NCBI RefSeq assembly: GCF_005869845.1
Contig: NZ_VAWF01000003.1
Coordinates: 434,001 to 498,000 of the forward strand
Length of the DNA: 64,000 nucleotides
DNA from: Fodinibius saliphilus
Lineage (GTDB): Bacteria; Bacteroidota; Rhodothermia; Balneolales; Balneolaceae
Direction of reading: 5' to 3'
Shown here piece by piece: positions 3,183 to 30,490 of the stretch. The first letter of the stretch is position 1. Each line of letters begins with the position of its first letter. Made by a program: the position numbers and the translations under genes. Under the pieces are notes generated by a model. It was not told the DNA's origin. It saw only the letters and a program-made list of their open reading frames with translations, and searched no databases.

Positions 3183-4268
3183 TTGGCAGATCAACTTTCA
3201 AAAGAGGAGCGCAAAAAGCGGCGCGAAAAAAGAAATAACCAAAATGAAAAGGCTAAAAGCTGGTTGCGAGAGTGGCTTGATGCCTTGATGTTTGCGGCTG
3301 TTGCAGCACTCATTATCCGTACTTTTTTCTTTGAGGCATATCGCATTCCTACTCCCTCAATGGAGAAAACATTACTTACGGGTGATTTTCTCATTGTTTC
3401 TAAAATAAATTATGGACCTCGTACGCCTATGGTCTTGGGAGTTCCTTTTACTAACATCCATTTACCTGGCCTAGTATTACCTTGGACACGTCTGCCCGGT
3501 TTTGAAGAAGTTGAGAGAAATGATATTGTTGTATTTAATTATCCCATAGATTTAGCACCTATTGCAGCTAAAACAAATTATATTAAACGGGCGGTTGGTA
3601 TGCCCGGTGACTCTTTATATCTCGATGATGCACAACTGTATGTAAACGGTGAAAAGGCTACGCCTTTCCCCGGTATACAGCAGACCTATACTGTGAAGGT
3701 TCGAGATCGGGTGCGATTGAGTCCGGCAAAAGTAAAAGCGGCAGGTGCTCAGCTTTATCGACAGCAGGGCAGCAATGGCTATCGCGTAAATATGACGAAA
3801 CAGATAGCAGAAAAAATGAGTCAGTGGCCTGAAGTCACCAGTGTAGACCCTTTTGTATTGCCTGAAGATTTTAACGAGTTTCGACAGAGTAAATTTAATT
3901 TCTCTTCCGGCTTTAATAATCATCACCACCTTTCTCCGTTTAAAGTACCTTCTGCCGGTGATACTGTGAGTCTAACTCCTGAAAACTATCATATCTATGA
4001 GAACATTATTACCAGATACGAGGGTAACAATGTGGAGCAAAATGCTGATCAGTTTATTATTAATGGTGAGGAGACAAATAAGTATACTATCCAGCAGGAT
4101 TATTACTTTGTGATGGGAGATAACCGGGATAACAGTGAAGATAGCCGGTTCTGGGGATTTGTACCTCAGTCGCATATTGTAGGAAAGGCAGGCATGATCT
4201 ATTTTTCTTGGGATAGCGAACGTTGGTTCCCGCGTTTCGGTCGTCTATTGGATGTTATTCATGACTAA
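3183..4268 (+). CDS. lepB: Signal peptidase I
   Basis: S26 family leader peptidase of 361 residues that removes signal peptides from exported proteins at the periplasmic face of the inner membrane. A very basic N-terminal tail is followed by one hydrophobic anchor (about residues 32-50). The catalytic Ser59 lies in PTPSMEKTL, the general-base Lys in IKRAVGMPGD, and the closing box is MGDNRDNSEDSRFWGFVP. A poorly conserved insert of roughly 100 residues between the Lys box and the last box makes it longer than E. coli-type enzymes of similar layout, as is common in Bacteroidota relatives. The start is a TTG at 3183, supported by AAAGGAG at 3171-3177. No better-placed ATG keeps the anchor. Confidence 0.95.
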   Translation: MADQLSKEERKKRREKRNNQNEKAKSWLREWLDALMFAAVAALIIRTFFFEAYRIPTPSMEKTLLTGDFLIVSKINYGPRTPMVLGVPFTNIHLPGLVLPWTRLPGFEEVERNDIVVFNYPIDLAPIAAKTNYIKRAVGMPGDSLYLDDAQLYVNGEKATPFPGIQQTYTVKVRDRVRLSPAKVKAAGAQLYRQQGSNGYRVNMTKQIAEKMSQWPEVTSVDPFVLPEDFNEFRQSKFNFSSGFNNHHHLSPFKVPSAGDTVSLTPENYHIYENIITRYEGNNVEQNADQFIINGEETNKYTIQQDYYFVMGDNRDNSEDSRFWGFVPQSHIVGKAGMIYFSWDSERWFPRFGRLLDVIHD

Positions 4269-25179: not shown

Positions 25180-25350
25180 TCTGGTGTTACTTTATCCCGC
25201 CTATTCGTTTAAACAGGTTCTCACATCCCTTCTCAGGTCTGTCGGCGCCTCAAGTTATGTACGGTTTTAGGATGGCAGCTTAGCATGCTGGTACTAAAGG
25301 TACATGTTGTAGCGTCAGGTAATTATCTAATACTCATTTTATTTATCTAT
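25180..25350 (+). promoter_or_regulatory. Long 5' leader of the DEAD-box helicase mRNA, probably structured
   Basis: About 170 bases lie between the -7 element and the ATG at 25351, with no convincing coding frame. A hairpin is possible at 25266-25298: TTTAG/CTAAA outside and CAGC/GCTG inside. Long structured leaders are typical of cold-shock or autoregulated DEAD-box helicase mRNAs in other bacteria. This is inference, and no named riboswitch consensus is seen. Confidence 0.4.
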
Positions 25351-26916
25351 ATGACAGATTCGAATTTTAGCGATTTAAACCTAGCCCAGCCAATTCTTAA
25401 AGGGTTAGAAAGTATGGGCTTTGAAAGTCCAACCCCCGTTCAGGAAAAATGTATTCCTGCACTTTTAGAAGGAAAAGATGTAGTAGGACAAGCACAGACA
25501 GGAACCGGAAAAACAGCAGCATTTGGAATTCCTGTAGTTCAACAAACTGATGTTGACATTGCCAAAGTACAGACCATTATAATGTGCCCTACACGTGAAT
25601 TGGCGATACAGGTTACCGGTGAGCTTATAAAGATTGGTAAGCATCTTGGCGGGCTTAACGTGATTCCTATTTATGGCGGGCAATCTATTTCTCGGCAGAT
25701 TAAGGCATTGAAAAGAGGAGCGCATATTGTTGTAGGTACTCCCGGTCGTACGATTGATCACCTACGTCGCGGTACCATGAAACTTAATAACCTGAAGCGT
25801 GTTGTCTTTGACGAGGCGGATGAGATGTTGAATATGGGATTCCGTGATGATATGGAACAGATCTTGTCATATGCTGATGGGCCTGTACAGACGATTATGT
25901 TTTCTGCTACCATGTCTAAAGGTATTAAGAAGATTATGAAGCGGTATATGAATAATCCGCAGACGATTGCCATTGAACGAAAGAAGATGACTGCGCCTAA
26001 TATTGAGCAATATAAAGTTGAGGTGCGAGATTCGGTACGAACAGAAGCTATTTGTCGGTTTTTGGATATCAACGGCTTTGCATTAGCATTGGTTTTTTGT
26101 AATACCAAACGGAAAACGGAAAAGGTGACTCGAGAGCTGCAATCTCGCGGTTATTCTTCTGATTTTATAAATGGAGACCTTAATCAGAATCAGCGTGACC
26201 GTGTGATGGCTAAGTTTCGATCTGGTGCTATTGATGTATTGGTGGGCACCGATGTTGCTGCTCGCGGACTTGATATCGATGATATTGAAGCCGTCTTTAA
26301 TTATGACATTCCCCAAGACCCAGAGTATTATGTGCACCGTATTGGACGTACAGGGCGGGCCGGTCGTTCAGGTATGGCTATTACATTTACTACGCGAAAC
26401 AAGCGAAAGCAGCTTCGCGCTATAGAGAAACAGATTAAAACTCAGTTAAATCCTTTGGAGATGCCAACTCCGGCCGATGTTCGAATCTCGAAACTCGACG
26501 GACTGATGGAAGAGATGGTAGAGGTGCTCGAAAAAGGAGACCTGCGTGATTATATCGAACAGATTGAAAGTTTTGTCGATGATCGTTTTACAACGATTGA
26601 AATTGCAGCAGCTCTGTTAAAGATGAATTCGGGCAAAAAAGAATCACAAGATGCAAGCCAACAGGCTAAGCAATATAACGATTCAGATATGATCAAGGTC
26701 TACTTCAACGTGGGTAAAAAGAACAATGTATATCCCGGTGATTTAGTCGGAGCTATTGCAGGTGAGTCTGGTATCCCCGGAAAAGTGATTGGAAATATCG
26801 ATATTTTCCCCAAACATTCTTTCGTTGATGTTCCCGGAAAGTATGTAAACCAAGTGATTTCCGGAATGGATCATAACAGAGTAAAAGGGAAGAAAGTGCA
26901 TGTGAAAGTTGCCTAA
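25351..26916 (+). CDS. DEAD-box RNA helicase, DeaD/CsdA-like with C-terminal RNA-binding domain
   Basis: A 521-residue ATP-dependent RNA helicase. The ATG at 25351 begins the Q-motif region (FSDLNLAQPILKGLESMGF) and an upstream in-frame start at 25285 is rejected because it lies in the leader. Motif I is AQTGTGKTAA, motif II is DEAD in VFDEADEMLN, motif III is SATMS and motif VI is HRIGRTGRAGRSG. The last about 75 residues (IKVYFNVGKKNNVYPGDLVGAIAGES) match the DbpA RNA-binding domain, which targets 23S rRNA or other structured RNA. Typical roles are ribosome biogenesis, mRNA unfolding and cold adaptation. A strong terminator follows. Confidence 0.94.
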   Translation: MTDSNFSDLNLAQPILKGLESMGFESPTPVQEKCIPALLEGKDVVGQAQTGTGKTAAFGIPVVQQTDVDIAKVQTIIMCPTRELAIQVTGELIKIGKHLGGLNVIPIYGGQSISRQIKALKRGAHIVVGTPGRTIDHLRRGTMKLNNLKRVVFDEADEMLNMGFRDDMEQILSYADGPVQTIMFSATMSKGIKKIMKRYMNNPQTIAIERKKMTAPNIEQYKVEVRDSVRTEAICRFLDINGFALALVFCNTKRKTEKVTRELQSRGYSSDFINGDLNQNQRDRVMAKFRSGAIDVLVGTDVAARGLDIDDIEAVFNYDIPQDPEYYVHRIGRTGRAGRSGMAITFTTRNKRKQLRAIEKQIKTQLNPLEMPTPADVRISKLDGLMEEMVEVLEKGDLRDYIEQIESFVDDRFTTIEIAAALLKMNSGKKESQDASQQAKQYNDSDMIKVYFNVGKKNNVYPGDLVGAIAGESGIPGKVIGNIDIFPKHSFVDVPGKYVNQVISGMDHNRVKGKKVHVKVA

Positions 26917-26943
26917 TTGCTCTCAATTTTGACACTATAATAT

Positions 26944-26977
26944 AAGCAGGTACTCAAAAAGAGTATCTGCTTTTTTA
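26944..26977 (+). terminator. Rho-independent terminator of the DEAD-box gene
   Basis: AAGCAGGTACTC pairs with GAGTATCTGCTT (one G-U pair) around AAAAA, followed by a T run. It lies 28 bases past the stop. Confidence 0.9.
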
Positions 26978-27322
26978 TTTTCTGGATTCAACTGGTAAGG
27001 ACAATCTGTAAGAAGATGTTCAGAAGTGTGACTTGAGGACTTCGGGAAAGTGGTTTGTATTTGTGTGGTAATGGTAAAATACAATCCAACCAACTCAGCA
27101 AAGAAGATCGTCATCAGATCAAAGCACTATTGGGTGCAGGCCATAATAAAACGCTGACCTGCGATAATCATAAGGTCTTTGCCATCATCAGAAAATACCC
27201 AATCAGTTTGGAGCTGATGTTTATTTTACGAGTATTGCCCGCTTAGTACAGAAAAATTATAATAAAAACATAGTTGGGTGATCAGGCACTTCCTTTTAAA
27301 AGAGACAGTAATTTACTTGTTG
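26978..27322. other. 345-bp stretch without a supported gene, before the marR operator
   Basis: A 63-codon frame from a TTG at 27055 to 27246 exists but has no recognisable domain and no ribosome-binding site, so it is not called. No hairpin or RNA gene stands out. Confidence 0.4.
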
Positions 27323-27343
27323 ATTAGTTGCATAGACAACTAT
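27323..27343 (+). promoter_or_regulatory. Probable MarR operator 1 (upstream of marR)
   Basis: The 21-bp sequence ATTAGTTGCATAGACAACTAT has a palindromic core, AGTTG(N6)CAACT. Its exact reverse complement recurs at 27846-27866 on the other side of the regulator gene. A repeated palindrome flanking a MarR gene is the usual sign of its own binding sites. Here it lies about 30 bases before the marR ATG, consistent with autoregulation. Inference: binding blocks the promoter. Confidence 0.7.
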
Positions 27344-27372
27344 ATATTGCATTAAACAAATGTAACAACAAT

Positions 27373-27825
27373 ATGGCTAAAGAAATACCTGAAATTCTGG
27401 ATGATGCGATTGGTTTTAATATCTATCGTGTAGCACTACTGTTTCGAAATGAACTGCAGAATGCGCTATCCGAATATAGTCTTACGCCCGAGCAGTGGCA
27501 GGTAATGCAGACGCTGTGGTCAACAGATGAAGTGATGAACCAGAACGATATAGCACATTTAACTCTGAAGGATAAACATAATATATCTAGGATGTTGGTA
27601 CGCATGGAAGACAACGGTTGGATTAAACGAAGCAGAGATCCTGAAGATGGCCGGGCATATATTATTGAGCTTACCAAACAGGCAAAATCGAAACGTGAAG
27701 AGGTAAGGGCTAAGCTATTGGGTCACTTTTCCAGCATTTTTGATGTAGCCGACGAGCAGGAGCTTGATCAGTTGCTCAAAACGTTGAAGAAATTCAGAGA
27801 CCGTTTGAACGATAAACCAAAATAG
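27373..27825 (+). CDS. MarR-family transcriptional regulator
   Basis: A 150-residue winged-helix regulator from the ATG at 27373. A TTG at 27328 is in frame but falls inside the operator and is rejected. The profile is typical: an N-terminal dimerisation helix, then SLTPEQWQVMQTLWSTD, HTH helices (MNQNDIAHLTLKDKHNISRMLVRMEDNG is the recognition region) and the wing RDPEDGRAYIIELT. C-terminal helices complete the dimer. MarR proteins repress efflux, stress or catabolic genes and release DNA on binding small phenolic ligands or on oxidation. There is no Cys in the HTH, so redox sensing is less likely. Two identical 21-bp palindromes flank the gene, so the target is probably itself plus the membrane gene at 27879. 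Confidence 0.92.
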   Translation: MAKEIPEILDDAIGFNIYRVALLFRNELQNALSEYSLTPEQWQVMQTLWSTDEVMNQNDIAHLTLKDKHNISRMLVRMEDNGWIKRSRDPEDGRAYIIELTKQAKSKREEVRAKLLGHFSSIFDVADEQELDQLLKTLKKFRDRLNDKPK

Positions 27826-27845
27826 GACAGCTATTTTTTATCAAA

Positions 27846-27866
27846 ATAGTTGTCTATGCAACTAAT
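27846..27866 (+). promoter_or_regulatory. Probable MarR operator 2 (upstream of the 27879 membrane gene)
   Basis: The sequence ATAGTTGTCTATGCAACTAAT is the exact reverse complement of the 21-bp site at 27323-27343. It ends 12 bases before the ATG at 27879. A regulator bound here would block transcription or initiation of the downstream gene. Confidence 0.7.
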
Positions 27867-27878
27867 AAATATATTATT

Positions 27879-28340
27879 ATGAATCGATCAATAATTGTAA
27901 CCATACATGCGGCAAGTAGCACAATCGCACTTTTTTTAATAGCAAGCTTTTTCATTTCTACTGTTATTGTTGAACTCTTAGGTACATTGCAGTATATACA
28001 ATTGGTAAAACAGTATATTGTCTATGGACTCGTGATATTAGTACCTGCGATGGCAATATCTGGACTTTCCGGTAATAAATTGGGAGGTAGCAGTAAAGCG
28101 AAGCCCATTCAGCAGAAGAAGCAGAGAATGATACGCATTATGCTGCTGGGTTTAACTGTGCTTTTACCATCAGCAGTTGTTTTACATTACTTGGCTCAAT
28201 CTACCGATTTCGGAGGGCTATTTTACAGTATCCAGCTCGTCGAATTTGTTGCAGGTGGTACAAACATATATTTGATGGCACAAAATATGAAGTCAGGTCT
28301 TATTCTAAGTGGTCGTATGCCCCAAAAGGTGCAATCTTGA
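27879..28340 (+). CDS. Small four-TM membrane protein under MarR control, function unknown
   Basis: A 153-residue integral membrane protein with about four helices: near 11-36, 44-63, 86-104 and 115-134, separated by a basic loop (NKLGGSSKAKPIQQKKQR). I do not recognise the family, although small MarR-regulated membrane proteins of this kind are frequent in Bacteroidota relatives. It follows marR by 53 bases and the second 21-bp operator, so it is the likely regulated gene. A transporter or membrane stress role is a guess only. It converges with the monooxygenase-like gene at 28348-28647, with 7 bases between the two stops. Confidence 0.7.
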   Translation: MNRSIIVTIHAASSTIALFLIASFFISTVIVELLGTLQYIQLVKQYIVYGLVILVPAMAISGLSGNKLGGSSKAKPIQQKKQRMIRIMLLGLTVLLPSAVVLHYLAQSTDFGGLFYSIQLVEFVAGGTNIYLMAQNMKSGLILSGRMPQKVQS

Positions 28341-28347
28341 ATAGAAA

Positions 28348-28647
28348 TTAGTCGTCAAAGCTTTGCTTTACTTGGTAAGTTTGGGAGCTGTAAGGTTTTA
28401 GTTGGTATGGGAATAGTTTTGATACGAGTGCATCGTGTTCAGGACTATCTGCCCATTTCCGCAGAAGGGGTTCATCTTCAAACCGTAATAAAAGTTGTGA
28501 CTCGCTGGCTTCATCGATCTCTTCGATTATTTCAAGGGAAATAAATCCTTTAAAGTCGGATAGTATATCGGCTACTTCACTAACCCATTTACCAAAATAC
28601 TCCTCACCTTGTTGGTTAAGAAAGTGTTTGATATGTACAATAATCAT
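28348..28647 (-). CDS. Antibiotic biosynthesis monooxygenase (ABM)-like small protein
   Basis: A 99-residue protein that looks like a dimeric alpha-beta barrel: an opening strand MIIVHIKHFL, a helix, a central strand GFISLEIIEEIDE, a strand QLLLRFEDEPLLRKWADSPEHD with the W-x-x-S-x-E-H feature of ABM/YgiN-type domains, and a short C-terminal extension. Such proteins oxidise or detoxify small aromatic or haem-like compounds, or act as quinol monooxygenases without a cofactor. Substrate unknown. It converges with the membrane gene at 27879-28340, 7 bases between stops, and starts 50 bases from the end of the nucleotide-hydrolase gene upstream on its own strand. Confidence 0.6.
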   Translation of the reverse strand: MIIVHIKHFLNQQGEEYFGKWVSEVADILSDFKGFISLEIIEEIDEASESQLLLRFEDEPLLRKWADSPEHDALVSKLFPYQLKPYSSQTYQVKQSFDD

Positions 28648-28697
28648 AATCTGAAATTTTATTTAATAACGAATTAATGATTCTGGGAAATAAGCAG

Positions 28698-29096
28698 TTA
28701 AGAAAAGATCTGTTGAATAATCTTTTTTGCTTCCTCAACTTCGGAATACTCAAAACATTTAATCGCAGGAGCACCGTTAATCATTGCTGAAAGTGCTTTA
28801 TCTTTATCGGTTTGGTGTAAACAAAATACCTGTTTATCCATGGCAATAGCTTGGCCTATTTCATAACCAACTCCATGCGAAGGGGTAGTAACTTCTCCAA
28901 TCAGAATATCAGCTTCTTTAAGCCACTTCATATCTTGTTGGTAAATTTGTTCGTCGGTAGGCTCATTGCTGATATTGGATGCCCCAACATGTTCAGTTAG
29001 TACATTCCCAAATTTTTTTAACTCATTGATGAGTTGATTATACAATGCAGCATCCTGTCGACCACCTCTGATTGAGCCGGAAAAATAGATATTCAT
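28698..29096 (-). CDS. DNPH1/Rcl-like 2'-deoxynucleoside 5'-phosphate N-hydrolase
   Basis: A 132-residue nucleoside 2-deoxyribosyltransferase-fold enzyme that resembles vertebrate DNPH1 (Rcl) strongly at the motif level. The substrate loop IYFSGSIRGGRQD at the N-terminus, the segment GNVLTEHVGAS, then DMKWLKEADILIGEVTTPSHGVGYE (split here as DMKWLKEADILIGEV and TTPSHGVGYEIG) match the family in order, and LSAMINGA near the C-terminus also fits. DNPH1 cleaves the glycosidic bond of 5'-phosphorylated deoxynucleosides, sanitising abnormal nucleotides. It has no signal peptide. It is divergent from the four-gene operon starting at 29294, with a 197-base shared intergenic region. A house-cleaning role is expected, and a defence link is only speculative. 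Confidence 0.85.
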   Translation of the reverse strand: MNIYFSGSIRGGRQDAALYNQLINELKKFGNVLTEHVGASNISNEPTDEQIYQQDMKWLKEADILIGEVTTPSHGVGYEIGQAIAMDKQVFCLHQTDKDKALSAMINGAPAIKCFEYSEVEEAKKIIQQIFS

Positions 29097-29293
29097 TCAG
29101 TTAAAAAGCTAAAATTAAAGTTTGTTTCTTAAAGTTTATCAAACAATTCTAACAACTCCATTTACTCAGTTTTAGGTTCTCATCTTGCTATTTTAAAAAT
29201 ATAGCACTTAATTAGAATGCAAGTCAAAAGGGAGAGGATTAGTATAAGGGTTGTTCTGCTAAATCAAGAGTTATTAATTAAAAAACTGTTGTC

Positions 29294-30490
29294 ATGTTCG
29301 GGATTGAAGCGTTAAATGTTGTTGTAGGCCTTATTTTCGTATACCTGTTGTTTAGTCTTTTTGTAAGTATTATCAATGAGATTTTAAGCAGTTTGTTACA
29401 GATCCGTGGGACAGAGCTTAAGTCTATTATTCAGAATATGGTATCCTCGGAGCTGGTAGATAAGATCTATGAAAACCCAAAGATACAAACATTTTTACGT
29501 AGAACCGGGAAGCTTAATTATGGTTCGAAGTCGTTTCTTGAAAAGCACCATCATGGAATATTACCGGATGAGATTCCTCCAGAAGATTTTACAAATGCAT
29601 TAATAGAAACGATTAAAGAGGAGAAGGAAGATGATCAGACAATCTCCCAGTATTTAAAAAGTTTGGATACCCAATCGAGTGTGGGGCTCAACTATTTAGC
29701 AAGCCTGGCTGAGGAGGTAGAGCAGGATCTGAATGCCTTTGAGAAGGAGGTAAAGCAGTGGTATGACAAGGTGATGGGTTATGCTTCTGATTGGTACAAA
29801 AGAAAATTACGATGGATTTTAATTGCTTTGGGATTGGTTGTTGCTGTTGCATTTAATGTGGATTCCATATCTATATTCAAGACGCTGTCAGATAATCCAC
29901 AGGCTAGACAGGCCCTTATAGCTCAGACTGAAGCATTTGTTGATGATTATGCAAATGAGAATGGACGTATTGTATTAAAAGAGGCAAGCGATTCAACAGT
30001 TATGATTTCTCATAAAACGATGCTGTCACAATCGTTAAATGAGCTGAAAAAAGATTTTCGAACGGACATTGATAATCGCTATTACAAGAGTGTTAAAAAC
30101 GATATAAAAAAGAAGATGGCCGCAGAGGAAAATTGGCAGGATACTACTAGTGATGGCTATAAAGACCATTTGGTAGTAGCTGTAGAAGATTCACTGTATT
30201 TGATTGCACAAGATTCTTTGAAAGCCAAATATCCACAAGCAGTGGCAGTAGATTCTGCTTACAACAGACTAATGACTCTACAAGAGCAACAGATTAACAA
30301 AGCTGCCAGCACTCTGGGAATTGGTTGGGATACCAGTAAGCCACGGTGGGGCTTGCACTGGTATTCGATTATCGGTTGGCTCATAACAGCTCTGGCAATT
30401 AGCCTTGGGGCTCCATTTTGGTTTGATACGTTGAAAAAGGTAATCAACATTAAGAGTGAGATTACTAAGCAAAAGGGGGTTAAAAGATGA
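29294..30490 (+). CDS. Three-TM membrane protein of unknown function, first gene of the subtilase operon
   Basis: A 398-residue protein of a widespread but functionally uncharacterised membrane family. An N-terminal helix is at about 8-36 (VVVGLIFVYLLFSLFVSII), a second at about 171-190 (WILIALGLVVAVAFNV) right after the basic WYKRK turn, and a third near 360-380 (IIGWLITALAISLGAPFWF). The segment VKQWYDKVMGYASDWYKRK is the feature I would use to recognise relatives. Between TM2 and TM3 is a long, mostly helical, charged domain of about 160 residues that is likely cytoplasmic or periplasmic. The gene overlaps the protease gene by 4 bases (ATGA), so translation is coupled. Function unknown: a membrane effector or anchor for the protease is inference from the coupling. 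Confidence 0.7.
   Translation: MFGIEALNVVVGLIFVYLLFSLFVSIINEILSSLLQIRGTELKSIIQNMVSSELVDKIYENPKIQTFLRRTGKLNYGSKSFLEKHHHGILPDEIPPEDFTNALIETIKEEKEDDQTISQYLKSLDTQSSVGLNYLASLAEEVEQDLNAFEKEVKQWYDKVMGYASDWYKRKLRWILIALGLVVAVAFNVDSISIFKTLSDNPQARQALIAQTEAFVDDYANENGRIVLKEASDSTVMISHKTMLSQSLNELKKDFRTDIDNRYYKSVKNDIKKKMAAEENWQDTTSDGYKDHLVVAVEDSLYLIAQDSLKAKYPQAVAVDSAYNRLMTLQEQQINKAASTLGIGWDTSKPRWGLHWYSIIGWLITALAISLGAPFWFDTLKKVINIKSEITKQKGVKR

Follow-up and report, generated by a model that had tools for sequence, protein, structure and literature searches.

Putative MarR operators before a marR gene and the adjoining membrane protein gene of Fodinibius saliphilus

The locus and its paired 21-bp sites

We analysed a 64,000-nucleotide stretch from the genome of Fodinibius saliphilus, a salt-loving bacterium (hereafter, the window), in which a marR gene is followed on the same strand by a gene for a membrane protein. 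Each of the two genes is preceded by one copy of the same 21-bp sequence, and these copies are named operator 1 and operator 2 after their putative function. The locus comprises the following features:

27055-27246: short open frame with LSKEDRHQIKALLGAGHNKT, single-copy
27320..27348, + strand: sigma-70-like promoter TTGATT-N17-TATATT, a consensus match overlapping operator 1
27323..27343, + strand: putative operator 1, ATTAGTTGCATAGACAACTAT, ending 29 bp before the marR ATG; 21/21 bases are the same in F. halophilus
27373..27825, + strand: marR, 150 aa, without cysteine; Pfam MarR (PF01047) 48.8 bits against a cut-off of 24.6
27846..27866, - strand: putative operator 2, the exact reverse complement of operator 1; palindrome kept at the same position in F. 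halophilus and in an Acaryochloris MAG
27879..28340, + strand: membrane protein gene, 153 aa; modelled with moderate confidence as four long helices
28351-28647, - strand: antibiotic-biosynthesis-monooxygenase (ABM) domain gene; convergent with the membrane gene
28701-29096, - strand: nucleoside 2-deoxyribosyltransferase-like gene (PF05014)

The winged-helix domain of the marR product was recognised both by its Pfam family and by profile matches to solved MarR chains. We placed its start at the ATG common to homologues; an alternative in-frame TTG at 27328, inside operator 1, would yield a protein of 165 aa. Upstream of marR, the short frame carrying LSKEDRHQIKALLGAGHNKT resembles the decayed start of an IS30-type transposase, although it matched no Pfam family up to E 0.1. 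The segment 26990-27260 had no other match in the window genome. As for the genes further downstream, marR and the membrane gene of Ruegeria (L018) are separated by an ABM-type gene, and another is found nearby in F. halophilus, beside what looks like another marR-type gene. A look-alike of the nucleoside 2-deoxyribosyltransferase-like frame is also located downstream in the latter genome.

An earlier note on this DNA had described two exact copies of the 21-mer in opposite orientation, just before marR and just before the membrane gene, each with an AGTTG(N6)CAACT core. All of this holds: the copies end 29 and 12 bp before the respective ATGs, and the only two perfect matches to the core in the window are the ones inside them. 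With up to one mismatch, the core was matched seven times (the two perfect matches included) against 1.99 expected. The 21-bp pair is also the longest exact inverted repeat in the window (arms within 1.5 kb), the runners-up being 14 bp long, and no match to the 21-mer at up to three mismatches was obtained in 100 dinucleotide-preserving shuffles of the window. The genome scan with mismatches that the note had recommended (3,606,883 bases, 3.6 Mb, 98.71% complete) detected no third copy at up to three mismatches, only the two places in the window. Since the genome holds just two copies, we rejected the possibility, considered in the note, that the 21-mer is a common and widespread repeat. The core spans 16 bp, or 18 bp with an outer T/A pair, which fits the size of MarR sites given in excerpts of PMC6018408 (16-20 bp, with a palindrome that is not always perfect).

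Operator 1 spans the spacer of the sigma-70-like promoter and reaches both of its hexamers. An operator lying across the spacer and hexamers of a promoter is a usual geometry for repression by polymerase exclusion. The same promoter-like hexamers and spacing are found in F. halophilus; such consensus matches are frequent here, with seven in 27200-28000 (801 bases) against a mean of 2.8 in shuffles. A promoter-like match is likewise present at operator 2 (27850-27877), but it is probably not the real promoter of the membrane gene, because transcription would start at or after the ATG of that gene. Within 27200-28000, no terminator-like site was detected.

Being exact reverse complements, the two copies could also be read as RNA elements, pairing within the marR transcript as a 21-bp duplex that joins its ends and sets expression. 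This is extremely unlikely: a correct promoter call at 27320-27348 would leave site 1 outside the transcript, ahead of its first base, and in the Acaryochloris MAG described below the sites run in the same direction, so that any pairing would be confined to their near-palindromic arms. No special meaning is needed to account for two copies in opposite orientation, as the site is nearly symmetric.

Conservation of the sites with the marR clade

The closest named relative is Fodinibius halophilus (L008, phylum Balneolota), which has the same gene pair with both sites kept. Its MarR protein is 87% identical to that of the window and its membrane protein 69-70%. All 21 bases of site 1 are unchanged amid an otherwise diverged upstream region, while site 2 has two changes among its 21 bases and retains both AGTTG/CAACT arms. 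The exact 21-bp identity is, therefore, particular to the window genome, and the conserved element is the palindrome. The same gene pair also occurs in an Acaryochloris MAG (L009), whose MarR is 58-59% identical to the window's. Here, two sites lie before marR, 31 bp apart, and one lies before the membrane gene; all three have perfect AGTTG/CAACT arms and share one direction. The idea advanced in the earlier note that the sites jointly control marR and the membrane gene is thus well supported, as far as prediction from sequence goes, by conservation at both positions in these two relatives.

The same note had also envisaged a repression loop, in which MarR dimers would hold both sites together in a loop of about 522 bp enclosing marR, a reading compatible with their function as operators. 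Core-to-core distances are 522 bp in the window, 524 bp in F. halophilus and 511 and 542 bp in the Acaryochloris MAG. These distances differ from that of the window by 2, 11 and 20 bp, each close to a whole number of 10.5-bp turns, a weak hint of looping that would also fit a shared helix face. However, the spacing mostly follows from the length of marR, the comparison covers just three loci, of which two are close relatives, and a loop needs a tetramer or a bridging protein, with no sign of either. Moreover, phase matters little for sites more than 500 bp apart. We consider the loop unlikely; conservation speaks for joint control of both genes, and the loop is left with the spacing hint.

In a Spirochaetaceae MAG (L010), three sites precede marR, each matching 9 of the 10 arm bases, and no membrane gene of the window family was found in the 8.4 kb around marR. 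The distribution of the two proteins is sparse. Among 58 related genomes, the window's included in each count, the MarR protein was present in two, both Fodinibius (E <= 1e-20), and the membrane protein in three (E <= 1e-5). The marR clade was retrieved at E <= 1e-35 in 1 out of 339 genomes of the phylum of the Acaryochloris MAG, namely that MAG, and in 10 out of 344 of the phylum of the Spirochaetaceae MAG, counting the query genome. On plasmids, 120 records with MarR relatives were detected, every one of them below 60% identity.

We counted palindromic sites in the 160 bp upstream of 13 marR loci: the window, F. halophilus, the two MAGs and nine loci (L052-L060) from the phylum of the Spirochaetaceae MAG. 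Distances were measured from the start, or from the first matched residue for L052-L060, and L050 and L051 were omitted as second copies of L009 and L010. Sites with at least 8 of 10 arm bases were found at 11 of the 13 loci, whereas dinucleotide shuffles gave an expectation of 1.25, and sites with at least 9 of 10 at eight loci, against 0.09 expected. The motif was first noticed at the window, L008, L009 and L010. Without these four, the figures are 7 out of 9 against 0.81 and 4 out of 9 against 0.07 (summed per-locus shuffle values). No site was found within 160 bp upstream of marR in L056 and L060, and the best upstream site in L057, L058 and L059 has just 8 of the 10 arm bases. Two sites of L052 read AGTTGTC-NN-GACAACT; each window site thus combines an AGTTGTC half of this kind with a variant half, AGTTGCA.

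An exact inverted repeat around one gene could equally mark the ends of a small mobile cassette carrying marR, and relatives of the pair do occur in distant phyla and in 2 of the 12 genomes of the genus. We rejected this reading, which is highly improbable, because the sites of the Acaryochloris MAG all point in the same direction and are not inverted ends. In that MAG, moreover, the membrane gene accompanies marR despite lying outside the repeats. Of the nine additional loci from the phylum of the Spirochaetaceae MAG, seven have sites upstream of marR. The window genome has no other copy of the 21-mer, and there is no transposase-sized frame between the repeats.

A regulator other than the MarR protein of the window might instead bind both sites, given that the genome encodes three further MarR-type proteins with weak similarity to it (E <= 1e-5). 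This is improbable, as the motif accompanies this particular marR clade in Fodinibius as well as in the Acaryochloris MAG and the phylum to which the Spirochaetaceae MAG belongs, and the window genome has no further close copy of the 21-mer.

The extended palindrome TAGTTG-N6-CAACTA had no perfect match in the window genome beyond the two operators. At up to one mismatch, nine places were retrieved against 24 for a reversed control pattern, and a wider regulon in this genome was accordingly rejected. The regulon is probably local, since the relaxed scan gave no sign of other targets, with the proviso that sites weaker than one mismatch would escape it. In the relatives, AGTTGYNNNNRCAACT at up to one mismatch was found at 41 places in F. 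halophilus (control 55), 106 in the Acaryochloris MAG (control 68) and 30 in the Spirochaetaceae MAG (control 25). Many of the Acaryochloris places listed include GCGATCGC, which we take to be a common cyanobacterial repeat. F. halophilus has one extra perfect core site, roughly 15 kb away from the gene pair, and the Acaryochloris MAG has two beyond those of its gene pair.

Taken together, conservation of the sites with the gene pair in F. halophilus and the Acaryochloris MAG and their presence upstream of 11 of 13 marR loci support the reading that the 21-mers serve as operators for the MarR-family protein whose gene they flank, which would repress both marR and the membrane gene; we put the probability of this reading at about 0.88. 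Against it stand the two loci without a site (L056 and L060), the late transcription start implied by the promoter-like match at operator 2, the extra core sites in the relatives and the different palindrome type that precedes some relatives of the membrane gene, described in the following section.

The membrane protein and its genomic neighbourhoods

The predicted target belongs to no Pfam family above its cut-off, the best match being DUF2231 (E 0.066, 13.7 bits against 26.4), and it had no match in NCBIfam up to E 0.1. Its structural model had a mean pLDDT of 72.1, while the other four models had 51.5-55.2. A fold search with this model returned no match at E <= 0.001; in a second one, many four-helix bundles were matched, the best (Z 16.2) being a designed bundle. 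The model thus pointed to no known membrane fold, which says little about novelty. Compared by hhalign with a DoxX-like alignment of two rows, the protein obtained a probability of 0.1%, both profiles being shallow.

Homologues of the membrane protein were present in 5 out of 296 genomes of the window's phylum (E <= 1e-10, window genome counted) and in 31 plasmid records, with 34-44% identity among the 20 listed. Ten of these plasmid loci were inspected. In six of them (L015, L017, L018, L019, L020 and L023), an annotated MarR-type gene is adjacent to the relative of the membrane gene or one gene off. L021 has an annotated TetR-type gene on one flank and an unannotated frame matching the marR profile (E 2.1e-5) on the other, and L024 carries an AraC-type gene. 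TTGACA/TGTCAA-like palindromes, a type different from AGTTG/CAACT, precede the membrane gene in L013, L015, L018 and L021. AGTTG/CAACT-like palindromes are located just before the relative in L022 (Photobacterium sp. DA100, position 2902, 10/10 arm bases) and L016 (Vibrio sp. THAF191d, position 2930, 9/10 arm bases). No marR was found in the 6.4 kb around the relative in these two loci; the marR profile had no match at E <= 1e-3 in either of them, both unannotated, nor in L023, which has an annotated MarR-type gene.

In L057 and L059, a member of the membrane family is divergent to a marR relative (E 1.4e-27 and 1.4e-38), and in L059 it lies behind a YceI-like gene (20.7 bits, below the curated cut-off of 23.7) that is likewise divergent to marR. 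A YceI-like gene (73.4 bits) also adjoins the membrane gene in L007 (951-1962), and in L058 one (24.5 bits) is divergent to marR, together with a different small membrane protein. These neighbourhoods suggest a unit of YceI and a membrane protein. The Pfam matches of the frames neighbouring the window pair (25285-30487) include no YceI gene beside the membrane gene. According to excerpts of PMC9113575, a Neisseria YceI lipocalin was reported with ubiquinone-8 bound, and in Burkholderia the lipocalin BcnA and cytochrome b561 act against lipid peroxidation. On account of the YceI-like neighbours in relatives and of these published roles, a part for the window membrane protein in envelope protection is a fair guess by analogy, no more.

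The gene divergent to marR in the Spirochaetaceae MAG (3283-3804, - strand), located upstream of it, encodes a short DoxX/MauE-like membrane protein with a MauE score below the cut-off (18.9 bits against 27). DoxX/MauE-like membrane proteins with weak, below-cut-off Pfam scores are divergent to marR in L054 and L055, as is a small membrane protein, DoxX/MauE-like by eye, in L052 and L053. Judging from these sequences, the same marR clade seems to be paired with different small membrane proteins. A plasmid search with the DoxX/MauE-like neighbour from the Spirochaetaceae MAG gave no match, which says little because the query was shifted by one codon.

The predicted circuit and known MarR systems

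In the circuit that we propose, a MarR dimer would bind the AGTTG-N6-CAACT pseudo-palindrome. At operator 1, it would cover the spacer and the hexamer edges of the marR promoter, repressing marR and also, through read-through, the membrane gene. Operator 2 would provide the membrane gene with its own layer of repression, either by covering a promoter or by stopping polymerase arriving from upstream; on the sequence, this site may thus act at a promoter of its own, as a block to upstream transcription or as an auxiliary site. A ligand, probably small, lipophilic or aromatic, would free the dimer and turn both genes on. The lack of cysteine in the MarR translation excludes thiol-based sensing by MarR itself, and direct binding of a ligand is the likely trigger. 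What the sequences display directly is the two sites, where they lie, their conservation alongside the gene pair and the promoter-like overlap at operator 1; that MarR binds and represses, what kind of ligand it responds to and how operator 2 works are inferred.

Gene control at this locus would be ordinary, a MarR repressor circuit; the less ordinary part is its target. The operator pair points clearly to what this marR clade likely controls: a membrane protein that matches no Pfam family, whose relatives lie beside MarR-type genes in several phyla. With a predicted operator and a probably local regulon, a ligand screen would be simple and could lead to a function for the membrane protein family. 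More tentatively, the gene pair might be one form of a widespread, undescribed envelope module switched by MarR, in which the four-helix protein, adjoined in some relatives by YceI-like lipid-binding proteins, would shield the membrane from, or mend damage caused by, a lipophilic or oxidised compound sensed directly by the cysteine-free MarR, with the target-side operator as a second control layer; we hold this broader view to be possible, though doubtful.

Our literature searches retrieved no paper joining MarR with AGTTGTCTAGACAACT (a weak test, being an exact-letter search), none on Fodinibius and MarR, none recognised as dealing with the locus or motif, and none joining MgrA, SarZ and AGTTGT with binding. 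By sequence profile, the solved chains closest to the window MarR are 4hbl and 5hlg-5hli (E 2e-17 to 7e-17), which we take to be AbfR of Staphylococcus epidermidis. AbfR is a cysteine-based oxidation sensor, whereas the window MarR has no cysteine.

MhqR of Staphylococcus aureus is described in excerpts of PMC6798810 as a MarR-type repressor at the head of its operon, with a promoter-proximal inverted repeat, and inactivated without a thiol mechanism; the window MarR, likewise, has no cysteine. It differs from the window MarR in operator sequence, in its known quinone ligand and in its target genes; moreover, the excerpts describe an operator upstream of the operon and no second one inside it, whereas the window has a putative one before the membrane gene. 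YvmB/PchR of Bacillus subtilis (excerpts of PMC4992311) resembles the circuit proposed for the window in autorepression via a palindrome, and the site that it has in the yvmC operator region overlaps a promoter -10 element. In contrast to the proposed circuit, it has a wider regulon and a divergent target; its conserved core is 14 bp. In SCO3205 of Streptomyces coelicolor, as proposed for the window, separate pseudo-palindromic operators serve the regulator's own gene and a neighbouring target gene. The excerpts of PMC3737563 place these operators in one divergent intergenic region, while those of the window flank marR and the target lies downstream on the same strand; they also report that separate self and target operators were measured for this one MarR protein.
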